Source: Catenuloplanes indicus (GTDB lineage: Bacteria > Actinomycetota > Actinomycetes > Mycobacteriales > Micromonosporaceae). Taken from it: a DNA stretch of 64,000 nucleotides. The stretch's first letter is position 1. Each line of letters begins with the position of its first letter. The notes beneath the pieces were generated by a model, which saw only the letters and a list, made by a program, of their open reading frames with translations, did no database searches and was not told where the DNA came from. The position numbers and the translations under genes were made by a program. The stretch spans positions 5,580,001 to 5,644,000 of the forward strand of contig NZ_JAUSUZ010000001.1 of assembly GCF_030813715.1 (NCBI RefSeq). The letters are read 5' to 3'. Positions 53,932 through 63,972 of the stretch are shown here, one piece after another.

Positions 53932-54121
53932 TATGGGTAGCTCCGGGAAGACACGTTGCAGTCAAACGTCATGAACATCCCACCACACTCCCAGTCCGAC
54001 CCAACCTGGGCTTTCTCTTTGACACTCGTCGTGATGGAATCTCGAAGGTTCGGCCCACCCGGGTCGAACTATGTTCGGCGGCCACCCACTCGGGGTGGCG
54101 CGGATGCTGAGGGGCGGTGAC

Positions 54122-57100
54122 GTGAGCGAGCAGCCAAGGAAGAAGGCGGCGGGAGCCGTCTCTTCACGTCTCCGTTGGCCTGGCAGCCGACTCCGCGACC
54201 TGCCGATCTGGTCCAAGCTCGGACTGATCATGATCGTGCCGACCATGGCGACGATCGTCGTGGGCACCAGCGGTCTGATCGACCACATCGAAGAGGCACA
54301 GGACGCGGATCAGGCGCGCACGATCGCCCAGCTGGAGCAGTACTCCGGCGAGCTGGTCGACAGCCTGCAGAACGAGCGGGCCGCCGCCGCGCGCTTCCTG
54401 AGCACGCCGAACTCCCAGCGTGACGCCAAGGCCGCGCTGCTGGAGGCGTTCAACCAGACGCACTCCGTGGTCGACGCCGCGAAGAAGGACTACTCGCAGC
54501 AGCGCACGCTGATCACCGACCTGCCGGACAGCAACTTCGAGTCGCTGCTGGACAGTGCGGACTCCGGGCTCGAGCAGCTGCCCGCGACCCGCAGTCAGGT
54601 GAGCAACAACTCCGTGCAGCTGTCGCTGGCCAAGCAGAGCTACGACGGCGTCATCACCGGCCTCCTGCAGATCCGTAACTCCGCCTCCCAGCTCGCCGGT
54701 GACCCCGGCCTGAGCGACCGCATGCGGGCCAGTGCCGCGCTGGCGCAGGAGAAGGAGTACCTCTCGACCCAGCGCGTCATCGTGCACAGCGCGTTTGCCC
54801 AGGGCGAGATCACCCCAAACCTCCGCAAGGACTACATCGCGACGCTGACCGGTCAGAGCCAGGCGGCCGCCACGTTCGAGACCGTCGCCACCCGCGAGGA
54901 CCGGGACTACAAGCGCCAGGTCATCGCCGGCCCGGACGAGCGCGAGGCGAAGTCCAACGCCGGTAAGATCGAGGCGAACCAGGACGGTGACATCAACTCG
55001 CTCGGCTTCTCCGCGGAGGAGTGGGACGAGGGGATGGCCGGCAAGAACAACCTGTTCCGCACGGTGGAGAAGCGACTGGACGAGCAGACCGTCACCCAGG
55101 CCACGACGCTGCGGAACGACGTGCAGCGGCGAGTCCTGGTGGAGACCGGTGTGCTGCTCGGCATGCTCCTCCTCGCGATCCTCTTCGCCTGGCTGGTGGC
55201 CCGGTCGATGGCCCGCTCGCTGCGCGAGCTGCGGCACGGCGCGCTCTCCGTCGCACAGTACGGCCTGCCCCAGGCGGTGGCCCGGCTCCGTGACCCGGCG
55301 ATCTCCGCGCAGCTGTCGCCGGTCCAGGTCGCCAACCAGATCGCCGAGCCGCTGCCGGTCCGCAGCCGGGACGAGTTCGGTCAGGTGACCGAGGCGTTCA
55401 ACGCGGTCCACCTGGAGGCGGTGCGCACCGCGGCCGAGCAGGCCGTGCTCCGCGCCTCCGTCTCCACCATGTTCGTCAACCTGGCCCGCCGTTCGCAGAT
55501 CCTGGTCGACCGGCTCATCGGTCACCTGGACCGGCTGGAGCGCGGCGAGGAGGACCCGGACCGGCTGGCCGAGCTCTTCCAGCTCGACCACCTGGCCACC
55601 CGAATGCGCCGCAACGACGAGAACCTGCTGGTCCTCGCGGGTGCGGACTCCACCCGCGTGCAGCGCGAGCCGGCCGCCCTGATCGACGTGCTGCGCGCTG
55701 CGCAGTCCGAGGTCGAGCACTACACCCGGATCGACTTCGGCAACATCGACAAGGACATCGAGATCTCGGCGCACGCCGTCAACGACCTCGTGCACCTCGT
55801 CGCCGAGCTGTTCGACAACGCGACCGCGTTCTCGCCGCCGGACTCGCAGGTCGTCGTCGACGCCCGGATCTACGGTGACCGTGCCACGCTCTCCGTCGAG
55901 GACCGCGGCATCGGCATCGCGCCGGACCAGATGCGCGACCTGAACGAGCGGCTGCAGCGTCCGCCGACCGTGGACGTCACGGTCTCCCGGATGATGGGCC
56001 TGGTCGTGGTCGCCCGCCTGGCGGCCCGGCACGGCGTCAAGGTGGAGCTGCGCTCGGCCGCCGAGCGCGGCACGATCGCCGAGGTCACGCTGCCCACGGC
56101 GGTGCTGGCATCGCACGCGGTCGCCGGTGCCGGCCGTACCCCGGCCGCGGTCGGCGGTGCCCGGCCCGAGCCCGCGGCGTTCGGCGGCGGCCAGGGCGGC
56201 TTCGGCTCCCCGCTGGCGCTGGAGGGTGGCAGCGGCCGCTCGCCGTCGCAGCGCGAGTCCGCGCCGTCGCTCGGTGGCTTCGCGAGCGAGCCGCTCCCGT
56301 CCTTCGGCGGGTTCGGCAACGATCCGGCGCCCACCTCGGGCGGCCCCACCCGGTCCATGCCGGCCTGGTCCGACCTGACCGGCGCCGCGCCGGGCGGCGG
56401 CACCAACGGCGCGAACGGCGGGCCCGCGAACGGCAACAACGGTTTCGGCAGCTTCAACGGCTTCGGTGCCGGCCCGGCCGGTGGCGGTCCGCGCAACGGC
56501 CGCGCGACCGACGCGTTCGGCGCCAACGGCAGCCGCGGCGAGGGCCTGCCGCACCGCCCGCGCCAGGACGGCCCGGCGCCGCTGGACGACTTCGCCGGAC
56601 CGGCGTCGCCGACCATCCCGCGGCAGAAGCCGGCCACGCCGGAGCAGCAGCGCGGCCCGGTGCCGCCGCTCTCCGTCCCGCCGGTCGCGTCGGCCCCACC
56701 GGCCAGCGGCCCGGCGTCGGCGCAGTCGGCTCCGCCGGTATGGCCGCCGATCGCCCCGGCGGCGGAGAACCCGGCGCCCGCGGTGCCGGAGCGGCTCGCC
56801 TCCTCGCTGGACCTGACCGCCGAGATCCCGCGTTACCGCCCGGAGAACGGTGCCCCCGCGGTGCCGCCGATCGCCCCGGTGGTTGCGGTTCCGTCGTCGG
56901 CGCAGCCGATCCCGTCCCCGGTGGCCCCGGCCACGCCGACTCCGTCGGCCCCGCAGGTCACGCCGACTCCGTCGGCCCCGCAGGCCGCGCCGAAGCAGCC
57001 GGTGGTGGACGAGACGATGGAGCTGCCGATCTTCCGGGAGCTGGAGTCCGCGTGGTTCCGCACCCAGAAGGCGTCCGGCAAGCCGGCCACCGGCCCGACC

Positions 57101-57613
57101 GGTGCGGCGGCCACGCCGAGCCCGGCCGAGGCCGCGAGCGCCCCGACCCAGCAGTACGGGACGATCGAGCCGAAGAAGCGTAGTCTTCCCACGCCGGGTG
57201 GTGCAGCGCGCACGCCGGAGCCGGTCACCGCCGGGTCCGGGGCGCCGGTCAGCCCCGGTGACGGCGCCACGTCGCAGCGGATCTCCACCGAGCCTTCCGG
57301 CTGGCGGACCGCGGCCGACGAGGGCTGGCGGACGGCCGCCTCGGTCGCCGCAGCCGCGGGAGACACGGCGTCGGAGACCACCCAGGCGGGCCTGCCGAAG
57401 CGCAAGCCGATGGCACAGCTCGTTCCTGGTGGAATCGAGAAGGGGACCACGGTCGTCAACAAGCGGTCGCCCGAGGGGGTGCGCGGGCTCCTGTCCGCCT
57501 ACCACCGCGGCGTGCAGCGCGGACGTACGGGTCCCAAGGACAACCCGACCGGTTCAGAGGGAACATTGGACGGGCAGCAATCCTCGCAGGCTGGCAAGGA
57601 GCATGAGGGATGA
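54122..57613 (+). CDS. cvnA: Conservon sensor histidine kinase with NIT domain and long C-terminal tail (CvnA)
   Basis: 1163 residues from a GTG with GAGGGGCGG upstream; ATGs at 54071 and 54104 are in frame. Membrane segments at about 33-53 and 340-362 enclose an extracytoplasmic nitrate/nitrite-sensing type helical domain ([19 protein letters not shown]). A HAMP region, a dimerisation region with [20 protein letters not shown], and a HATPase near 540-665 ([31 protein letters not shown]) follow. The last ~500 residues are Pro/Gly/Ala-rich. Near the end are [10 protein letters not shown] (970-978), [15 protein letters not shown] (1088-1103) and YHRGVQRGR (1126-1135), also found in the protein at 60573. 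It heads the four-gene conservon. Confidence 0.93.
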
Positions 57614-58014
57614 CAACAACGCAGGACCTCGGTTGGTTGCTGGCGAACTTCGCCGACCGCGTTCCGGGTGTCGCGCATGCGGTCGCCGTATCCGCCGACG
57701 GTCTGCTTCTCGCCGGTTCCCGTGATCTTCCGCGGGACCGGGCTGACCAGCTGGCGGCTATCGCGTCCGGTCTGGTCAGCCTGACCCAGGGCGCGGCCCG
57801 CTGCTTCGAGGGCGGCGCGGTGCTCCAGACCGTCGTGGAGATGGACAACGGGTTCCTCTTCCTGATGTCGATCTCCGATGGCTCGTCCTTCGCCGTGCTG
57901 GCCGCACGGAGCTGCGACGTCGGCCAGGTCGGGTACGAGATGGCCCTGCTGGTGGACCGGGTGGGCGACGCCCTGACCCCGGCTCCGCGTACCGCGGCAG
58001 GGATGGTTGGCTGA
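57610..58014 (+). CDS. cvnB: Roadblock/LC7 domain protein (CvnB)
   Basis: 134 residues from the ATG overlapping the kinase stop. A single roadblock/LC7 domain ([46 protein letters not shown]). In characterised conservons the CvnB protein interacts with CvnA and helps form a membrane-proximal complex resembling a G-protein-coupled system. The position as second gene is diagnostic. Confidence 0.94.
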
Positions 58015-58126
58015 CAAGCCAGGGCGATGGCCGGCGGGAGCCGGCCGGAGCACTATATAAATGCGACAACGGGTTTCCGCGATCTTGAAACCGCTATCTA
58101 GGAAACAGAGGGGGTGAACGGCGACG

Positions 58127-58504
58127 ATGGCCGAACGCGAAGAGCCGACCGGCGCGCTGGTCAGGCCGTACGCCGTTACCCGAGGCCGGACCCGGCCACG
58201 GTTGGAGATCGCACTCGAAGCGCTGATTGAGACGACGGTGCGGGGCCGGTCCTCCGGTTCCAACAACGGCGGACACGGTCGAGAGCATCAATACATAGCC
58301 GCGCTGTGTGACGGCCGGCTGCAGTCACTCGCGGAGATCGCCGCGCGGATGTCACTTCCGCTCGGGGTCGCTCGGGTCCTCATCGCCGACATGGCCGCCG
58401 ACGGCCTTGTCGCGGTGTACGAACCGACGTCCCTGGAGGATGCGAACGACGCGGTGGGCACGGAATTGCTGGAGAGGGTGCTGAGTGGACTTCGCAGGCT
58501 CTGA
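58127..58504 (+). CDS. cvnC: DUF742 protein (CvnC)
   Basis: 125 residues. It has the RPYAVTRGRTRP motif of DUF742 and a winged-helix-like second half (LQSLAEIAARMSLPLGVARV). A short Ser/Gly/Asn insertion (RGRSSGSNNGGHGREH) is present. It overlaps cvnD by 20 bases. The 112-bp gap after cvnB is AT-richer (CACTATATAAATGCG) and could hold an internal promoter. Confidence 0.93.
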   Translation: MAEREEPTGALVRPYAVTRGRTRPRLEIALEALIETTVRGRSSGSNNGGHGREHQYIAALCDGRLQSLAEIAARMSLPLGVARVLIADMAADGLVAVYEPTSLEDANDAVGTELLERVLSGLRRL

Positions 58505-59093
58505 CACGGCGCACCGCCCTATGGCCGGGCGCGTGACATCGGCGAAGATTGTCATCGCCGGTGGGTTCGGCGTCGGAAAGACGACGCTGGTCGGCTCGGT
58601 CTCGGAAATCACTCCGCTGACCACCGAGGCCATCATGACGTCGGCGGGCGTGGGCGTGGACGACACCCGGCAGGTGCCGGGCAAGACCACCACTACGGTC
58701 GCCATGGACTTCGGTCGTATCACGATCGATCGCGACCTGATCCTGTACCTGTTCGGTACGCCGGGTCAGACGCGTTTCTGGTTCATGTGGGATGAACTGG
58801 TGCGCGGCGCGATCGGTGCGGTGGTGCTGGTGGACACCCGCCGGCTCGCGGACTGCTTCGCGGCGATCGACTTCTTCGAGCACCGGCGCCTGCCGTACCT
58901 CGTGGCGATCAACTGCTTCGACGGGATGCAGTACCACAACGCTCAGGATGTGCGGGACGCGCTCGCCATCTCCAGCGAGGTGCCCGTGGTGAGCTGCGAC
59001 GCGCGTAACCGCGAGTCGACGAAGCACGTGCTGATCTCCCTGGTGGAGTACGTGCTGTCGATGCGGCGTTCGCGCGCGGTCGCGCCGGCCTGA
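58485..59093 (+). CDS. cvnD: Conservon small GTP-binding protein (CvnD)
   Basis: 202 residues from a GTG inside the end of cvnC. G1 loop AGGFGVGKTTLVGSVSEI, G3-like LFGTPGQTRFWFMWDEL, and a degenerate NKxD position, INCFDG. It acts as the GTPase component with CvnA-C at the membrane in described conservons. A good intrinsic terminator follows, so the operon ends here. Confidence 0.94.
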   Translation: MDFAGSDTAHRPMAGRVTSAKIVIAGGFGVGKTTLVGSVSEITPLTTEAIMTSAGVGVDDTRQVPGKTTTTVAMDFGRITIDRDLILYLFGTPGQTRFWFMWDELVRGAIGAVVLVDTRRLADCFAAIDFFEHRRLPYLVAINCFDGMQYHNAQDVRDALAISSEVPVVSCDARNRESTKHVLISLVEYVLSMRRSRAVAPA

Positions 59094-59121
59094 TCACCGG
59101 GTCCAACGGCGGAACACCCAT

Positions 59122-59159
59122 CAGGGGTACGGGATGATCCCGTACCCCTGCGGGTTTTT
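59122..59159 (+). terminator. Rho-independent terminator of the conservon
   Basis: CAGGGGTACGGGA (59122-59134) pairs with TCCCGTACCCCTG (59138-59150). GCGGG and five T follow. Confidence 0.85.
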
Positions 59160-59173
59160 CCACGGGAACGAGA

Positions 59174-59201
59174 AAACGCCCCGCCGGACGGCGGGGCGTT
59201 T
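59174..59201 (-). terminator. Terminator of the binding-protein gene
   Basis: Perfect 12-bp stem AAACGCCCCGCC (59174-59185) with GGCGGGGCGTTT (59190-59201) and a GGAC loop, 9 bases from the stop of the leftward gene. A/T-rich ends make it usable in both directions. Confidence 0.75.
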
Positions 59202-59210
59202 CGTCGCGCG

Positions 59211-60413
59211 TCAGGCCGTGCGCACCCAGCTGTTCAGGTTGACGCTGAAGACGCCGAGCGAGTCGGCCTCCATGCCGCCGTGCCGGATCGTGGTCAGCGC
59301 GTAGGCGCCTGCCATGCCCTCCAGCGACGAGCGCTCCAGGTAGGCGCGCAGCCGGCCGCGGTCGACGCTCTTCGCCTGGAACGCGGCCTGGATCAGCAGG
59401 CTCAGGCCGTCCCCGGCGTACGGGGCGAAGCCCTTGAACGAGCCGTACTGCGTCACGTACCGCTGGATGAGGTCCCGGCGGCGCTGACCCTCCGGGCCGG
59501 TCTCGGTCAGCGACGAGGCGCCGAGCGAGCCGGGGCTGATCGCGTACGAGCCCTCCACCGCGTCCGCGTTCTCGTCCGAGAGCGTCTCCTCGGTGACCGC
59601 CTCCGGCGTGAAGAAGAACCGGCCCGTGTAACCGGCCGCACGAAGCGCACGGGCGGCTTTTCCGGCGTCGGGCGACATCGCCCATATGACGATGGCCCCG
59701 GGGCGTCCCAGGACCGCCTCAGCGGCCGCGGCGGCGAAGTCCTGATCTCCGGCGGGCAGCCGGACCGTGCTGCCGAGCGTGATGTCCCGGCTGGCGAGCG
59801 CGGAACCCATGTGCCGCACGCCCGCGTCGCCGTGCCGGCCGGTGCCGGCCAGGATCGACGCCTTCGCGATCTTCTGCCGGTTGATCTCCTGGGCCAGTGC
59901 CTGCGCGACGTCCCGGGCGTCCGGCGTCAGCTTGAACGTGTAGGTGCGCTCGGACAGCGGCGTCAGGATGTCGTCCGCGGACGCCAGCGACAGGAACGGC
60001 ACCTGGAGATCCTGCGCCACGTCGGAGATCGCGGTGGAGGTCTCCGGCACGGTGCCACCGATGAGCGCGTTCACGCCGTCCCGGTTGGTCAGCTGCTGCG
60101 CCAGCTCGGCGGCCTTCTTCGGGTCGCCGCCGCTGTCCACGACCTTCAGCTGGAGCGTGCGGCGCTGCGTGCCGACCTGGAAGCCCTCCGCGTTCACCTG
60201 GACCTGGAACAGCTCCATGGCGCGGGCCTGCAGCTCGCCCATGGCGGTGCCGGTCCCGGTGCGTTCCAGGACACCGCCGACGACGAGGTCGGTGCTGGAG
60301 GCGGTCCTCGGGCCGGTGGACTCGTCGTCACCGGTGCCGCAGGCGGCCACGGTGAACGCGGACGCGGTCGCCACGAGCAGGCCCCGGCGCGTAATGGTGG
60401 GCCGGTTGAGCAT
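59211..60413 (-). CDS. Branched-chain-amino-acid-type substrate-binding lipoprotein
   Basis: 400 residues from the ATG at 60413. The N-terminus has TITRRGLLVATASAFTVAAC, a lipoprotein signal with Cys at 25 and a possible twin-arginine. The mature part is a type 1 periplasmic-binding fold (LVVGGVLERTGTGTAMGE, VDSGGDPKKAAELAQQL, ALIGGTVPETSTAISDVA). No permease or ATPase is nearby. It lies beside a conservon, so it may be a receptor for signalling rather than transport; that is inference. Confidence 0.88.
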   Translation of the reverse strand: MLNRPTITRRGLLVATASAFTVAACGTGDDESTGPRTASSTDLVVGGVLERTGTGTAMGELQARAMELFQVQVNAEGFQVGTQRRTLQLKVVDSGGDPKKAAELAQQLTNRDGVNALIGGTVPETSTAISDVAQDLQVPFLSLASADDILTPLSERTYTFKLTPDARDVAQALAQEINRQKIAKASILAGTGRHGDAGVRHMGSALASRDITLGSTVRLPAGDQDFAAAAAEAVLGRPGAIVIWAMSPDAGKAARALRAAGYTGRFFFTPEAVTEETLSDENADAVEGSYAISPGSLGASSLTETGPEGQRRRDLIQRYVTQYGSFKGFAPYAGDGLSLLIQAAFQAKSVDRGRLRAYLERSSLEGMAGAYALTTIRHGGMEADSLGVFSVNLNSWVRTA

Positions 60414-60476
60414 GGTTCCAAGCCTTTCGCCACGGGGTGGCGACAAGGGATGTGGAGCCGCCACGCCCCCAGCAGA

Positions 60477-60506
60477 ATCGTGCTTGTTATCACGCCCTGT
60501 AGTCAA
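60477..60506 (-). promoter_or_regulatory. Candidate promoter of the binding-protein gene
   Basis: Read leftward: TTGACT (60506-60501), 18 bases, CACGAT (60482-60477). It lies 64 bases before the start codon. Confidence 0.4.
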
Positions 60507-60572
60507 TAGCCCGACATGTGGGCAATGACACCGAGGTCAGCGGGCAGATGTATAGAACTACTCAAAGTGACA

Positions 60573-62930
60573 TTATGAGCGGTATGTCGCCGACCGGAAT
60601 TCGTACTCGTCGTTGTCGGTGTCGTCCACCCGGCTGCCCTGATCGCGGGTGAAGTCCCAGCCACCGGCCGACTCGCGGCCCGGGCGGCCGCCGACCGCGA
60701 ACCCGCCGATCTCCTGCCCGCGACGCCAGCCGCGGAAGTAACCGGTGGTGTTCGCCGCCAGCGACTGGGCGTCGCGGACGATGCGCAGCTGACGGTCCTC
60801 GCGGAGCGCCGAGCCGGGCACCAGGTTGGCCTGCGGCACGCGCTTCGGCAGGCCCGCGTTGGTCTCCGCGCCGACGGCCGGGCGGGCCGCTTGCTCCGCG
60901 GCCTGCCAGGCCGAGTCCATCCGGCCCCAGTTCGGCTCGGCCTCGGACTCCACCACCGGGTCTTCCTTGCTGTGCCCGGTGAACCAGGCCGACGCGGTGG
61001 CCGAGAAGATCAGCAGGTCGCCGTCGCCCTCGTCGACCGGTAGCGGGGTCGAGCTGTCCAGCGCGTCCGGCACGCGGCGGGCCGGGTCGACCAGACGCAG
61101 CGGCGGCGCGTACGACCCGTTGCCGAGCGCCGGGTCGTCGCCACGTCCGTTGACCGGCTCGACCAGGCGCAGCACCGGCGGCTCCGGCGGCAGATCGTCC
61201 GACTGCCACGGCGGGCGGACGCGCAGCGTCTCCGCCATCGTCGGCGCCTCCGGGCCGGACGGCCCGCGCAGCTGCGGCTGCTCGCCGGTGTGCGCGCGCT
61301 CGTCACCGTCCTGGTGCGTCGGCCACGCGGCCCGGGAGCCAGGCTCCGGCGCCGGCGGCGTGGTGCGGGACGGCGGCATGCCGCCGAGCCTTATGTCGGT
61401 GAGGCCCCCACCGGCGGGCGGCGGCGTGTTTATCCCGTTCGCCGCGGGCAGTTCGGGCTCGCGCGAGGTCAGCTCCGCCATCCGCTGCCGGTGCTCGGCG
61501 CGGCTGCTGTTGATCGCGGCGGTGGTCAGCGGCGCGCGGAACGGCTCGCCGGAATCGGCCGGGCTCGGCGTACGCGTCGGCGGCTTCGGCCCGGGACGGA
61601 CACCGGGCTGTATCGGCGTGAGGCCGGGCGGCGGGGGCGGCGGCGCGGAGACCGGCCGGTTGGCCAGGCTGTCCGGGCGGCGGCCGGCCGGGCTGACCGG
61701 CACGTTCTCGCCGGTGCCCTCACGCGCGGCACGGCGGCCAACGGCCGGGTCGACGCGCCGGAACGCGCCGGTCGTCGAGTCCAGCTGGATCGACGACGTG
61801 TCGGGCCGGCTGAGCGGGCTGAGCGAGGTGTCCGGGCCGGTCATGTCGCTGGACGCGGCGACCGCGAACGGCGGCGGCCCGGCCGGGACCGGCGTGCCCG
61901 GCGTCTGACCCTCCGCGGCCTGGATGCGGGCCCGGCGGCTGCCCATGGCGGCCGCGGCACCGCCGCCGCGCACCGGGTGCAGCGGCGGCGCGGCCGGAGC
62001 GGCCGCCGGCTCCACGGGCGCGCCGAGCAGGCGGCGGTCCGCGGCCGGTGCCGGCGCGACGATCCGCGATGCGAGCGTGGCGACCAGCGTCTCGCAGGCG
62101 GCGTCGCAGGCCCGGACGGCCGCGACAGCCTGGCGGACGGTCTCGGCGACGGTGGGGGCGAGCGCGCGGTTGAGGCCGCGGCGGGCGGCCTCGTTCACCG
62201 AGGCCTGCAGCGCGGTGATCGCGGCGTGCACCCGCTCGGCCGGTGCGATGCCGTCCGAGACGATCTGGGAGGCGATCGCCTCGGTGGTGACGGTGACCTC
62301 GCGGTCCCGCCCAGGAGCGCCGCCGCCGAGCCGACTCGGCTCGGGGACGGCCGCGAGGACGGCCAGCACGAGCGGATCGGCCGGGTCCGGGTAGGCCCGC
62401 AGCGCGGCCGGGTAGAGCTCGCGCAGCACCTCGCGCAGCGCCACCGCGGCGGCGTGCCGCCCGGTGGCGAGCGCGGCGTGCGCGTTGAGGACCGGCTGGT
62501 AGCCGACCAGGCCGGCCGGCGGCGCCACGTTTATCGCGGTGAGCGCGCCGGCCTGCAACGCCCGGGCCAGCCCGACCGCGCGGCGTGCCCCGGGGGAGGA
62601 CGGTGCCTCGTCGCCGGCGAACCGGGAGGCGAAGTCGTCGGCGTCGTCGTCGTCCGCCACGGCCAGCGGGCGCCCCGCGGCCGTGAGCAGCGAGGTGACC
62701 AGCAGATCGTCGCTGTCCGCGGCGACCGACACGCTGGGAGAACCGCTGGCGCGCTCCGCGAGCAGCGAGCTGAGCCGGGCGAACCCGGACGCGTCGTCGC
62801 TTATCTCGGAGACGTGCAGCTGCCGGCCGGCGTCGTCCACCACGGCCACCATGAGGGACTGACCCTCGGTGGCCCGCCGCGCGGACGAATCCGCCGACGC
62901 CAGACCGCAGTACACCCGCACGAGCGCCAC
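60573..62930 (-). CDS. IS110-transposase-like N-terminal domain fused to a conservon-kinase-like tail; non-mobile, unknown function
   Basis: 785 residues from a GTG at 62930 with GGGAGGAGG eight bases upstream, a better site than that of the GTG at 62954. Residues 1-200 resemble the DEDD domain and following helix of IS110 transposases: MVAVVDDAGRQLHV, SGFARLSSLLAE, then LREVLRELYPAALRAYPDP and AVLAAVPEP. The catalytic acid positions look altered and no C-terminal Ser-transposase domain follows. Residues 200-300 are helical and 300-630 Pro-rich. The last 150 residues contain IFSATASAWF, AGLPKRVPQANLVPG and YFRGWRRG, as in CvnA. Similar proteins may be labelled transposase in databases. Confidence 0.8.
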   Translation of the reverse strand: MALVRVYCGLASADSSARRATEGQSLMVAVVDDAGRQLHVSEISDDASGFARLSSLLAERASGSPSVSVAADSDDLLVTSLLTAAGRPLAVADDDDADDFASRFAGDEAPSSPGARRAVGLARALQAGALTAINVAPPAGLVGYQPVLNAHAALATGRHAAAVALREVLRELYPAALRAYPDPADPLVLAVLAAVPEPSRLGGGAPGRDREVTVTTEAIASQIVSDGIAPAERVHAAITALQASVNEAARRGLNRALAPTVAETVRQAVAAVRACDAACETLVATLASRIVAPAPAADRRLLGAPVEPAAAPAAPPLHPVRGGGAAAAMGSRRARIQAAEGQTPGTPVPAGPPPFAVAASSDMTGPDTSLSPLSRPDTSSIQLDSTTGAFRRVDPAVGRRAAREGTGENVPVSPAGRRPDSLANRPVSAPPPPPPGLTPIQPGVRPGPKPPTRTPSPADSGEPFRAPLTTAAINSSRAEHRQRMAELTSREPELPAANGINTPPPAGGGLTDIRLGGMPPSRTTPPAPEPGSRAAWPTHQDGDERAHTGEQPQLRGPSGPEAPTMAETLRVRPPWQSDDLPPEPPVLRLVEPVNGRGDDPALGNGSYAPPLRLVDPARRVPDALDSSTPLPVDEGDGDLLIFSATASAWFTGHSKEDPVVESEAEPNWGRMDSAWQAAEQAARPAVGAETNAGLPKRVPQANLVPGSALREDRQLRIVRDAQSLAANTTGYFRGWRRGQEIGGFAVGGRPGRESAGGWDFTRDQGSRVDDTDNDEYEFRSATYRS

Positions 62931-62991: not shown

Positions 62992-63972
62992 TCAGTCGCG
63001 CCAGTCCACGACAGCAGAGATCTTGCCGATGATGGTGCGCCAGCCGAGGCTCGCCTGTTGCGCACCGATGCGCTTCAGACGGCGCCGGCCCATGAAGCCA
63101 CCGATGCCACCTCGCGACGCGGACCGCAGCGCCTCGTCCAGGTCGTCCAGCGGAGAGCCCGGTGAGAGCGCGGTCAGCACCGGCGCCAACCGAAGAGCGT
63201 AGCCGAGGTCGCGGGCGACCTCGCCGGCCTCGATCAGCAGACCGAGGTCCCACGCGTCGGCGCCACCCCGGAGGTTTTCCACCACCAGGTCCAGGCCGTA
63301 GTCGTCCTCCTCCAGCGGAACGACGTCCGCCGGCTGGAGACGCTCTGCCAGTGTGCCCCAAGTATCGAGCTGAGCGAGGTCGTGCGGAGCACCCGAACGG
63401 ACGAAAGCGACAAGCGATTCGGGGGTCTTGAACAGCAGCAGCTTGCCCTTGTGGGACAGGAAGGCCGGGACCTCCTCGGCTTCCTCCTCCTTCTCGGCGG
63501 CCGCGGTGTCCGAGTCGGCGTCCTTCTCGTCCGAGTCGGCGCCGTCGTCGGCCGAGTCGCCGGACTTCTCGTCCTTCTCGGCCTCCTCGAACAGCTCCTT
63601 GGCCTCCTCGTCGAGGATGACCACCTCGCCGTCCTCGTCCTCGCCCAGGTCGTCCTCGTCCTCGTCGCGCAGCCGGCGGGCGCGCGCGGCGAACGGGTCG
63701 TCGTCGTCCGCGGCCTCGATCTCGGTCGGCGTCACCTCGGTGGACGGCCGGTACGCCCGGAGCGTGTAACCGACGCCGGAGGGCAGCGCGATCGACACCG
63801 GGTCGATCCTCGTCTCCTCCCACAGCGAGCGGTCGGCCTCGGCAGCGGTGGTGTCGTCGGCCTCGGCGGCGGTGGTGTCGTCGTCCTCGACCGCCGCACT
63901 GGTCACGGCGTCGTCGTCAACGCCGGTCTCGGGCTCGTCGGCATCCTGCCGGTTGGGCGTCTGGGCGGCCAC
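62992..63972 (-). CDS. Acidic protein of unknown function upstream of the IS110-like gene
   Basis: 326 residues from a GTG with GGAGG five bases upstream. It begins with an Asp/Glu/Ala-rich stretch, then an ordered SLWEETRIDPVSIALPSGVG and YTLRAYRPST. A second, very acidic Lys/Glu/Asp segment covers about 85-165. The C-terminal half is folded (FLSHKGKLLLFKTPESLVAF, DLGLLIEAGEVARDLGYA) and ends with a basic GRRRLKRIG. No family is recognised with confidence. The next gene starts 61 bases after its stop, so the two probably form an operon. Confidence 0.8.
   Translation of the reverse strand: MAAQTPNRQDADEPETGVDDDAVTSAAVEDDDTTAAEADDTTAAEADRSLWEETRIDPVSIALPSGVGYTLRAYRPSTEVTPTEIEAADDDDPFAARARRLRDEDEDDLGEDEDGEVVILDEEAKELFEEAEKDEKSGDSADDGADSDEKDADSDTAAAEKEEEAEEVPAFLSHKGKLLLFKTPESLVAFVRSGAPHDLAQLDTWGTLAERLQPADVVPLEEDDYGLDLVVENLRGGADAWDLGLLIEAGEVARDLGYALRLAPVLTALSPGSPLDDLDEALRSASRGGIGGFMGRRRLKRIGAQQASLGWRTIIGKISAVVDWRD

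Follow-up and report, generated by a model that had tools for sequence, protein, structure and literature searches.

A C-terminal tail shared by the conservon protein CvnA and an IS110-derived neighbour in Micromonosporaceae: a proposed docking module for roadblock proteins

In this study, we analyzed a 64,000-nucleotide stretch of the 9.25 Mb genome of Catenuloplanes indicus (contig NZ_JAUSUZ010000001.1, positions 5,580,001 to 5,644,000; hereafter, the window), which harbors a conservon, i.e., a cvnABCD operon, and, on the opposite strand, the gene for a 785-residue protein, here termed P785 (60573–62930, minus strand). CvnA and P785 end in the same C-terminal tail, and across Micromonosporaceae the P785 gene is conserved next to the conservon. 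Our preferred interpretation, to which we assign a probability of about 0.6, is that this tail docks on roadblock proteins, tethering CvnA and giving P785 a means of sharing the roadblock protein CvnB or competing for it. On this view, P785 is best read as an accessory subunit of the actinobacterial G-protein system that had gone unrecognised.

Both tails, which are encoded at 57029–57526 (plus strand) within cvnA (54071–57613, plus strand) and at 60714–61010 (minus strand) within the P785 gene, comprised four motifs in an identical order in the translations. Motif 1, IF....SAWF, is located at 57029–57058 in CvnA and at 61010–60981 in P785, where it reads IFSATASAWF. Motif 2, a W separated by 3–4 residues from D..W..A, is found at 57302–57340 and at 60932–60885, respectively, with NWGRMDSAWQAAEQAA as the P785 version. 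Motif 3, AGLPKR.P.A.LVPG, maps to 57386–57430 and to 60857–60813 (AGLPKRVPQANLVPG in P785), and motif 4, an R followed after 11 residues by Y.RG..RG, to 57464–57526 and to 60776–60714, finishing with YHRGVQRGR in CvnA and YFRGWRRGQ in P785. The sequence-only reading of this stretch had proposed that both proteins end in the same motif series in the same order, and the motifs quoted there were indeed recovered; motif 2 is an extra shared motif, placed between motifs 1 and 3.

When the tail core of CvnA was aligned with that of P785, a score of 90 was obtained, compared with a maximum of 57 over 5000 shuffles. We consider this the better test against chance because the whole tail, which scored 91 versus shuffle maxima of 88 (2000 shuffles) and 73 (5000 shuffles), is compositionally biased. 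A leave-out profile built from 17 other CvnA tails, without rows from the window, P785 or a LysR-type carrier described below, matched only two of the 550 open reading frames (ORFs) of the window, namely CvnA (E 1.4e-26) and P785 (E 9.8e-18). The same profile also matched the P785 of another genome (2e-19), the LysR-type protein (2e-24) and stand-alone tail proteins (2e-16), each E value referring to its own target set. P785 tails compared with CvnA tails gave E values from 1e-15 to 2.4e-11 in a target set of 11 tails, and a search of the window's own genome with a profile that includes the window rows gave 9.6e-36 for P785 and 2.0e-33 for CvnA. By these sequence comparisons, the tail on CvnA and P785 is a homologous module. 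AlphaFold2 modelled the tail alone, from a shallow alignment of 12 sequences, as a disordered chain (pLDDT 48.5) with two short helices at 45–54 and 94–104, in motifs 2 and 4.

P785 is composed of an N-domain of about 290 residues (residues 1–290; 62061–62930, minus strand), a Pro-rich linker of about 335 residues and the tail. Its mean identity to nine Actinoplanes homologues was 60% in the N-domain, 33% in the linker, 82% in motif 1 with its flanks and 77% in the stretch from motif 2 to WDF. The protein had been called IS110-like from its sequence, and this description held: Foldseek ranks 1–11 for the N-domain were IS110-recombinase-like, with the RuvC/RNase H-like DEDD_Tnp_IS110 fold, and sequence homology to IS110 was present as well. 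Full-length P785 had no Pfam match at E 0.1, and the N-domain by itself yielded only PF01548, at E 0.13. In an alignment with five IS110-type ORFs, the residues that we take to be the catalytic DEDD set were largely missing from P785, since the D of GID was replaced, the E was a D or another residue, and both D of D..DA were absent. Similarly, Transposase_20 (PF02371) was not matched by the window P785 or by seven homologues, while both control transposases matched. Mobility was not apparent either, with a single P785 profile match in the window genome and a position mostly fixed beside the conservon across Micromonosporaceae (the exceptions being G300, G264 and perhaps G263). The N-domain thus derives from an IS110 recombinase whose catalytic residues were lost.

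The conservation of the locus was assessed in several sets of genomes. The gene order SatS > P785 > < CvnD < CvnC < CvnB < CvnA was read in 10 of the 11 loci found in GTDB genomes, the contig of the eleventh ending before the order can be read. At least 46 of the 61 Micromonosporaceae genomes had two tails facing each other at a distance of 1.9–4.9 kb. From these 46 loci, 39 were fetched (the other seven being the window, L064, L207–L209, L214 and L215), and all 39 showed a CvnA-type tail beside CvnB-C-D opposite a P785-type tail. The CvnA core and its tail were contained in a single ORF in 35 of them (two were cut by contig ends and two split over ORFs), and so were the P785 N-domain and its tail in 36 (of the other three, two were truncated at contig ends and one was split). 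No P785 was seen beside this conservon in G255 and G296, two one-contig genomes of one genus, the former having further tail matches elsewhere in the genome. In two other genomes, P785 is found in an operon with a second roadblock gene (see below), lying about 2.3 Mb away from the strong-tailed conservon in G300 and about 12 kb away in G264. P785 is therefore a conserved conservon neighbour in Micromonosporaceae.

The conservon of the window is canonical by Pfam and combines, in one operon (54071–59093, plus strand), a HATPase kinase-like CvnA of the NIT-HAMP-HATPase sensor type (NIT 4e-38, HAMP 5e-6, HATPase_c 8e-16), the roadblock/LC7 protein CvnB (57610–58014; Robl_LC7 1.1e-22), the DUF742 protein CvnC (58127–58504; 1.4e-29) and the small GTPase CvnD (58485–59093; ATP_bind_1 2.2e-34). 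The cvnA stop and the cvnB start overlap as ATGA, so that the tail is directly followed by a roadblock gene, as was also the case for 129 of 134 distinct tailed CvnA-core ORFs (four lacked such a gene and one left no room for it). A second roadblock gene, CvnB2, was located directly after P785 in 11 genomes of 10 genera, an arrangement that mirrors CvnA-CvnB: the P785 stop and the CvnB2 start overlapped by 4 nt in seven cases and by 1 nt in one, abutted in two and were 118 nt apart in one. CvnB2 was assigned to Robl_LC7 by Pfam in the three of 11 that were checked, and the CvnB2 proteins grouped as a single clade (support 100/100) in a tree of 65 roadblocks, for which the tool warned of long branches. 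As no CvnC or CvnD match was found on the same strand after CvnB2 in the 11 P785-CvnB2 loci, a roadblock gene is the sole partner gene that the two contexts share. The CvnB of the NIT conservon itself varies little across Micromonosporaceae (most branch lengths about 0.01–0.05), which seems unusual for a signalling protein.

No clear CvnB2 was recognised in the window genome, where the CvnB2 profile matched the neighbouring CvnB best (113 bits, compared with 225 and 209 for true CvnB2). The window P785 carries an extra C-terminal extension, EIGGFAVGGRPGRESAGGWDFTRD (60642–60713, minus strand), which is typical of P785 proteins without an adjoining roadblock gene. Of the distinct P785s that were scored, 48 of 48 without an adjacent CvnB2 had this W[DE]FxR segment, versus one of 11 with CvnB2; two duplicates were removed and L012, L232 and L203 were left unscored, the last of which does show WDFSR. 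L214, the sole exception, combines a variant of the extension segment with CvnB2, and this suggests that the segment was acquired before CvnB2 was lost.

With regard to distribution, 43 of 61 genomes of the order had a tail match to a first profile (E <= 0.1). A broader profile detected the tail in 23 of 198 genomes taken from across the phylum (E <= 1e-3), in all 61 Micromonosporaceae (E <= 1e-12) and in all 61 genomes of family f18, presumed to be Streptomycetaceae (E <= 1e-9). The fetched loci contained 211 distinct tail ORFs, of which 134 had a CvnA core and 57 were P785, while most of the remaining 20 were truncated or split CvnA or P785 ends, alongside the LysR and stand-alone carriers. 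Most tail carriers examined are hence CvnA kinases and, in keeping with the sequence-only reading, the tail is in these contexts neither confined to histidine kinases nor widespread in unrelated proteins, as it was seen off kinases on few other protein kinds. One of these is a 1090-residue LysR regulator of G022 (L069:5154-8426; LysR_substrate 1.8e-25, HTH_1 2.3e-7) with the tail at its end and a long low-complexity linker, which was seen in one of two genomes of its family and has no conservon gene within the 16.5 kb fetched. Stand-alone tail ORFs of 134 and 146 residues, stop to stop, occur in G022 and G008; the former has no conservon gene in the 10 kb fetched, and the latter has no roadblock gene on its 3.9-kb contig, which is too short to tell. 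The proposal that P785 is a conservon-associated component is thus borne out in that it is a conserved neighbour in Micromonosporaceae, while a narrow form, in which the association is exclusive to conservons, is weakened by the LysR and stand-alone genes of G022, devoid of conservon genes in the fetched stretches, and by the distance of P785 from the strong-tailed conservon in G300.

Other tail arrangements were also noted. In seven genomes (L301–L307), which are all the sampled members of genera g236 and g239 among the 61 f18 genomes, a small tail ORF of 171–222 residues follows cvnD on the same strand at 0–0.65 kb, with the tail near its start and a conserved WGDGW..FRPG segment at its end. 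It is possibly the remnant of a second CvnA, because relatives have two tandem conservons at that place. CvnA proteins with two tail copies were observed in L070, L071, L311 and L312, which suggests multivalent docking, and conservons with a second roadblock and a second DUF742 gene after cvnD in L081, L082, L083 and L085.

In order to account for these observations, we propose that the tail, as a probably disordered multi-motif peptide, binds a roadblock/LC7 dimer, either CvnB or a close paralogue. The tail of CvnA would tether the kinase to CvnB, which presumably regulates the GTPase CvnD, and P785 would be a second tail-bearing subunit, the N-domain of which may act as a sensor or scaffold, with its tail sharing, or competing for, the same roadblock protein as CvnA, so that the two proteins may compete or be bridged. 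Ancestral P785 probably had its own translationally coupled roadblock partner, CvnB2, which was probably lost, in most Micromonosporaceae examined, including the window strain, after P785 had gained its C-terminal segment; P785 proteins without CvnB2 next door now probably use the CvnB of the conservon. This proposal is based on the modelled disorder of the tail, on the presence, in both contexts, of a roadblock gene immediately behind the tail, on a reported interaction of CvnA9 with CvnB9 and CvnC9 by two-hybrid (PMC8510531, in the part of the article consulted) and on eukaryotic precedents. According to the portions of the respective articles at hand, p18 (LAMTOR1) of Ragulator wraps roadblock heterodimers (PMC5680233), and a partly disordered region of the dynein intermediate chain has an LC7 site at its end (PMC9771362). 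In these precedents, roadblock dimers are bound by a largely disordered chain that contains short helices, and the bacterial tail is proposed to bind in this way; the likeness is one of proposed mechanism alone, and no sequence relation is claimed. The sequence-only reading had placed the common partner among CvnB, CvnD or a membrane complex; of these, the roadblock protein CvnB is the one favoured by the evidence, and we infer that the tail binds to it.

Several observations weigh against this interpretation. The order CvnA-CvnB is general to conservons, so the 129 tail-roadblock junctions are not independent cases, and the CvnB2 operons, which form one clade, may go back to a single ancestral event; as gene order is inherited by descent, few independent events are available. 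P785 tails scored a mean of 54.3 bits against the neighbouring CvnA tail without CvnB2 (n = 51) and 56.0 bits with CvnB2 (n = 11). The former are therefore no closer to CvnA tails, and nothing indicates that they have adapted to a common partner. In the fetched stretches of 16.5 kb and 10 kb, neither the LysR-tail gene nor the stand-alone gene of G022 adjoins a roadblock gene. Lastly, with the broader profile, a strong tail match (E <= 1e-9) was present in just 94 of 200 genomes of the order, and the tail is therefore unlikely to be necessary for every conservon.

The LysR and G022 stand-alone genes, together with the G008 ORF, would fit more readily with a tail that sends its carriers to a common site, such as the membrane, the hyphal tip or the septum, or to a non-conservon partner, roadblock adjacency being mere conservon order. 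Motif 4, which by eye looks basic and amphipathic, agrees with this view, but the separate operons in which a P785 tail is followed by an overlapping roadblock gene would be left unexplained, and we regard this possibility as unlikely, if worth keeping in mind. Binding of the tail to CvnC (DUF742) or to the GTPase CvnD instead of the roadblock protein is likewise doubtful: CvnA9 also interacted with CvnC9 in the two-hybrid data cited, and cvnC or cvnD is near most CvnA-tail genes seen, but neither was matched on the same strand after CvnB2 in the 11 operons, where the tail-roadblock junction is the constant element.

Other alternatives concern P785 itself. It might still act on nucleic acid, as a guided or sequence-specific relative of the recombinases, with the tail coupling this activity to the kinase or the GTPase; with three of the four DEDD residues lost and the fourth changed, and without the Transposase_20 match present in two controls, we hold this to be improbable. 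Little favors the notion that its tail is a functionless relic, left when a transposon fragment was fused to the 3' end of cvnA. The N-domain is indeed of transposase origin and the gene adjoins the conservon, but the tail was kept in 62 of 64 ORFs with the P785 N-domain (a few genomes counted twice), the two misses being explained by an assembly gap in L012 and by a split ORF in L232, and the tail core is, in the Actinoplanes comparison above, better conserved than the N-domain and the linker; a relic is thus very improbable. Within the roadblock-docking interpretation, a more speculative extension, which we consider rather unlikely, is that the dead IS110 (bridge-RNA-type) domain, perhaps binding nucleic acid or a ligand, is wired into the G-protein complex via the roadblock-docking tail of the kinase, and the LysR factor likewise, which would provide outputs or inputs at the nucleic acid level.

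As to the surrounding genes, a Peripla_BP_6 substrate-binding protein is encoded between P785 and cvnD (59211–60506, minus strand; 3.7e-33); it is a variable bystander, a homologue being recognised at this place in part of the fetched loci and undetected in others. Immediately upstream of P785 lies a SatS-like gene (62992–63972, minus strand; NF050072, E 2.9e-10), with a score of 39.7 bits, far under the NF050072 cutoff of 700. SatS is a mycobacterial protein export chaperone family and, weak as the window match is, such a gene usually accompanies P785 on its upstream side in the fetched Micromonosporaceae loci. The P785 start is most likely the GTG at 62930 rather than the start of the longest ORF at 63065, because GGGAGGAGG is found just upstream and homologues align from that point.

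Among the open-access articles listed by our literature searches on conservons, CvnA and IS110, we found no description of the tail or of P785, the original 2006 conservon paper being outside this scope. Within the consulted text of the two conservon articles, the words "C-terminal" and "tail" do not appear in PMC13343842, nor does "C-terminal" in PMC8510531. While the window operon is a canonical conservon, a conserved C-terminal tail of CvnA was thus not found described. P785 resembles CvnE (P450) and CvnF (GAF) in being an accessory gene product linked to a conservon; however, it has neither a P450 nor a GAF domain, its gene is on the opposite strand, and it bears the tail of CvnA itself. 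Furthermore, CvnE and CvnF overwhelmingly accompany CvnA proteins without a sensory domain, according to the same portion of PMC13343842, whereas the CvnA partnered with P785 has one, NIT in the window. With the IS110 recombinases IS621 and ISCro4, the P785 N-domain shares fold and sequence homology, but P785 differs from them in its largely lost DEDD residues, the missing Transposase_20 match, its single copy in the window genome, its fixed synteny and the added linker and conservon tail.

The path by which a signal passes from CvnA to the roadblock protein and the GTPase is called poorly understood in the consulted part of PMC13343842. A conserved and portable tail provides a short peptide open to deletion, swapping and co-crystallisation. 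That it occurs on a dead recombinase, on a LysR regulator and in tail-only proteins suggests the existence of accessory subunits which would escape domain-based surveys, and the tail is a sequence tag with which more of them may be found.
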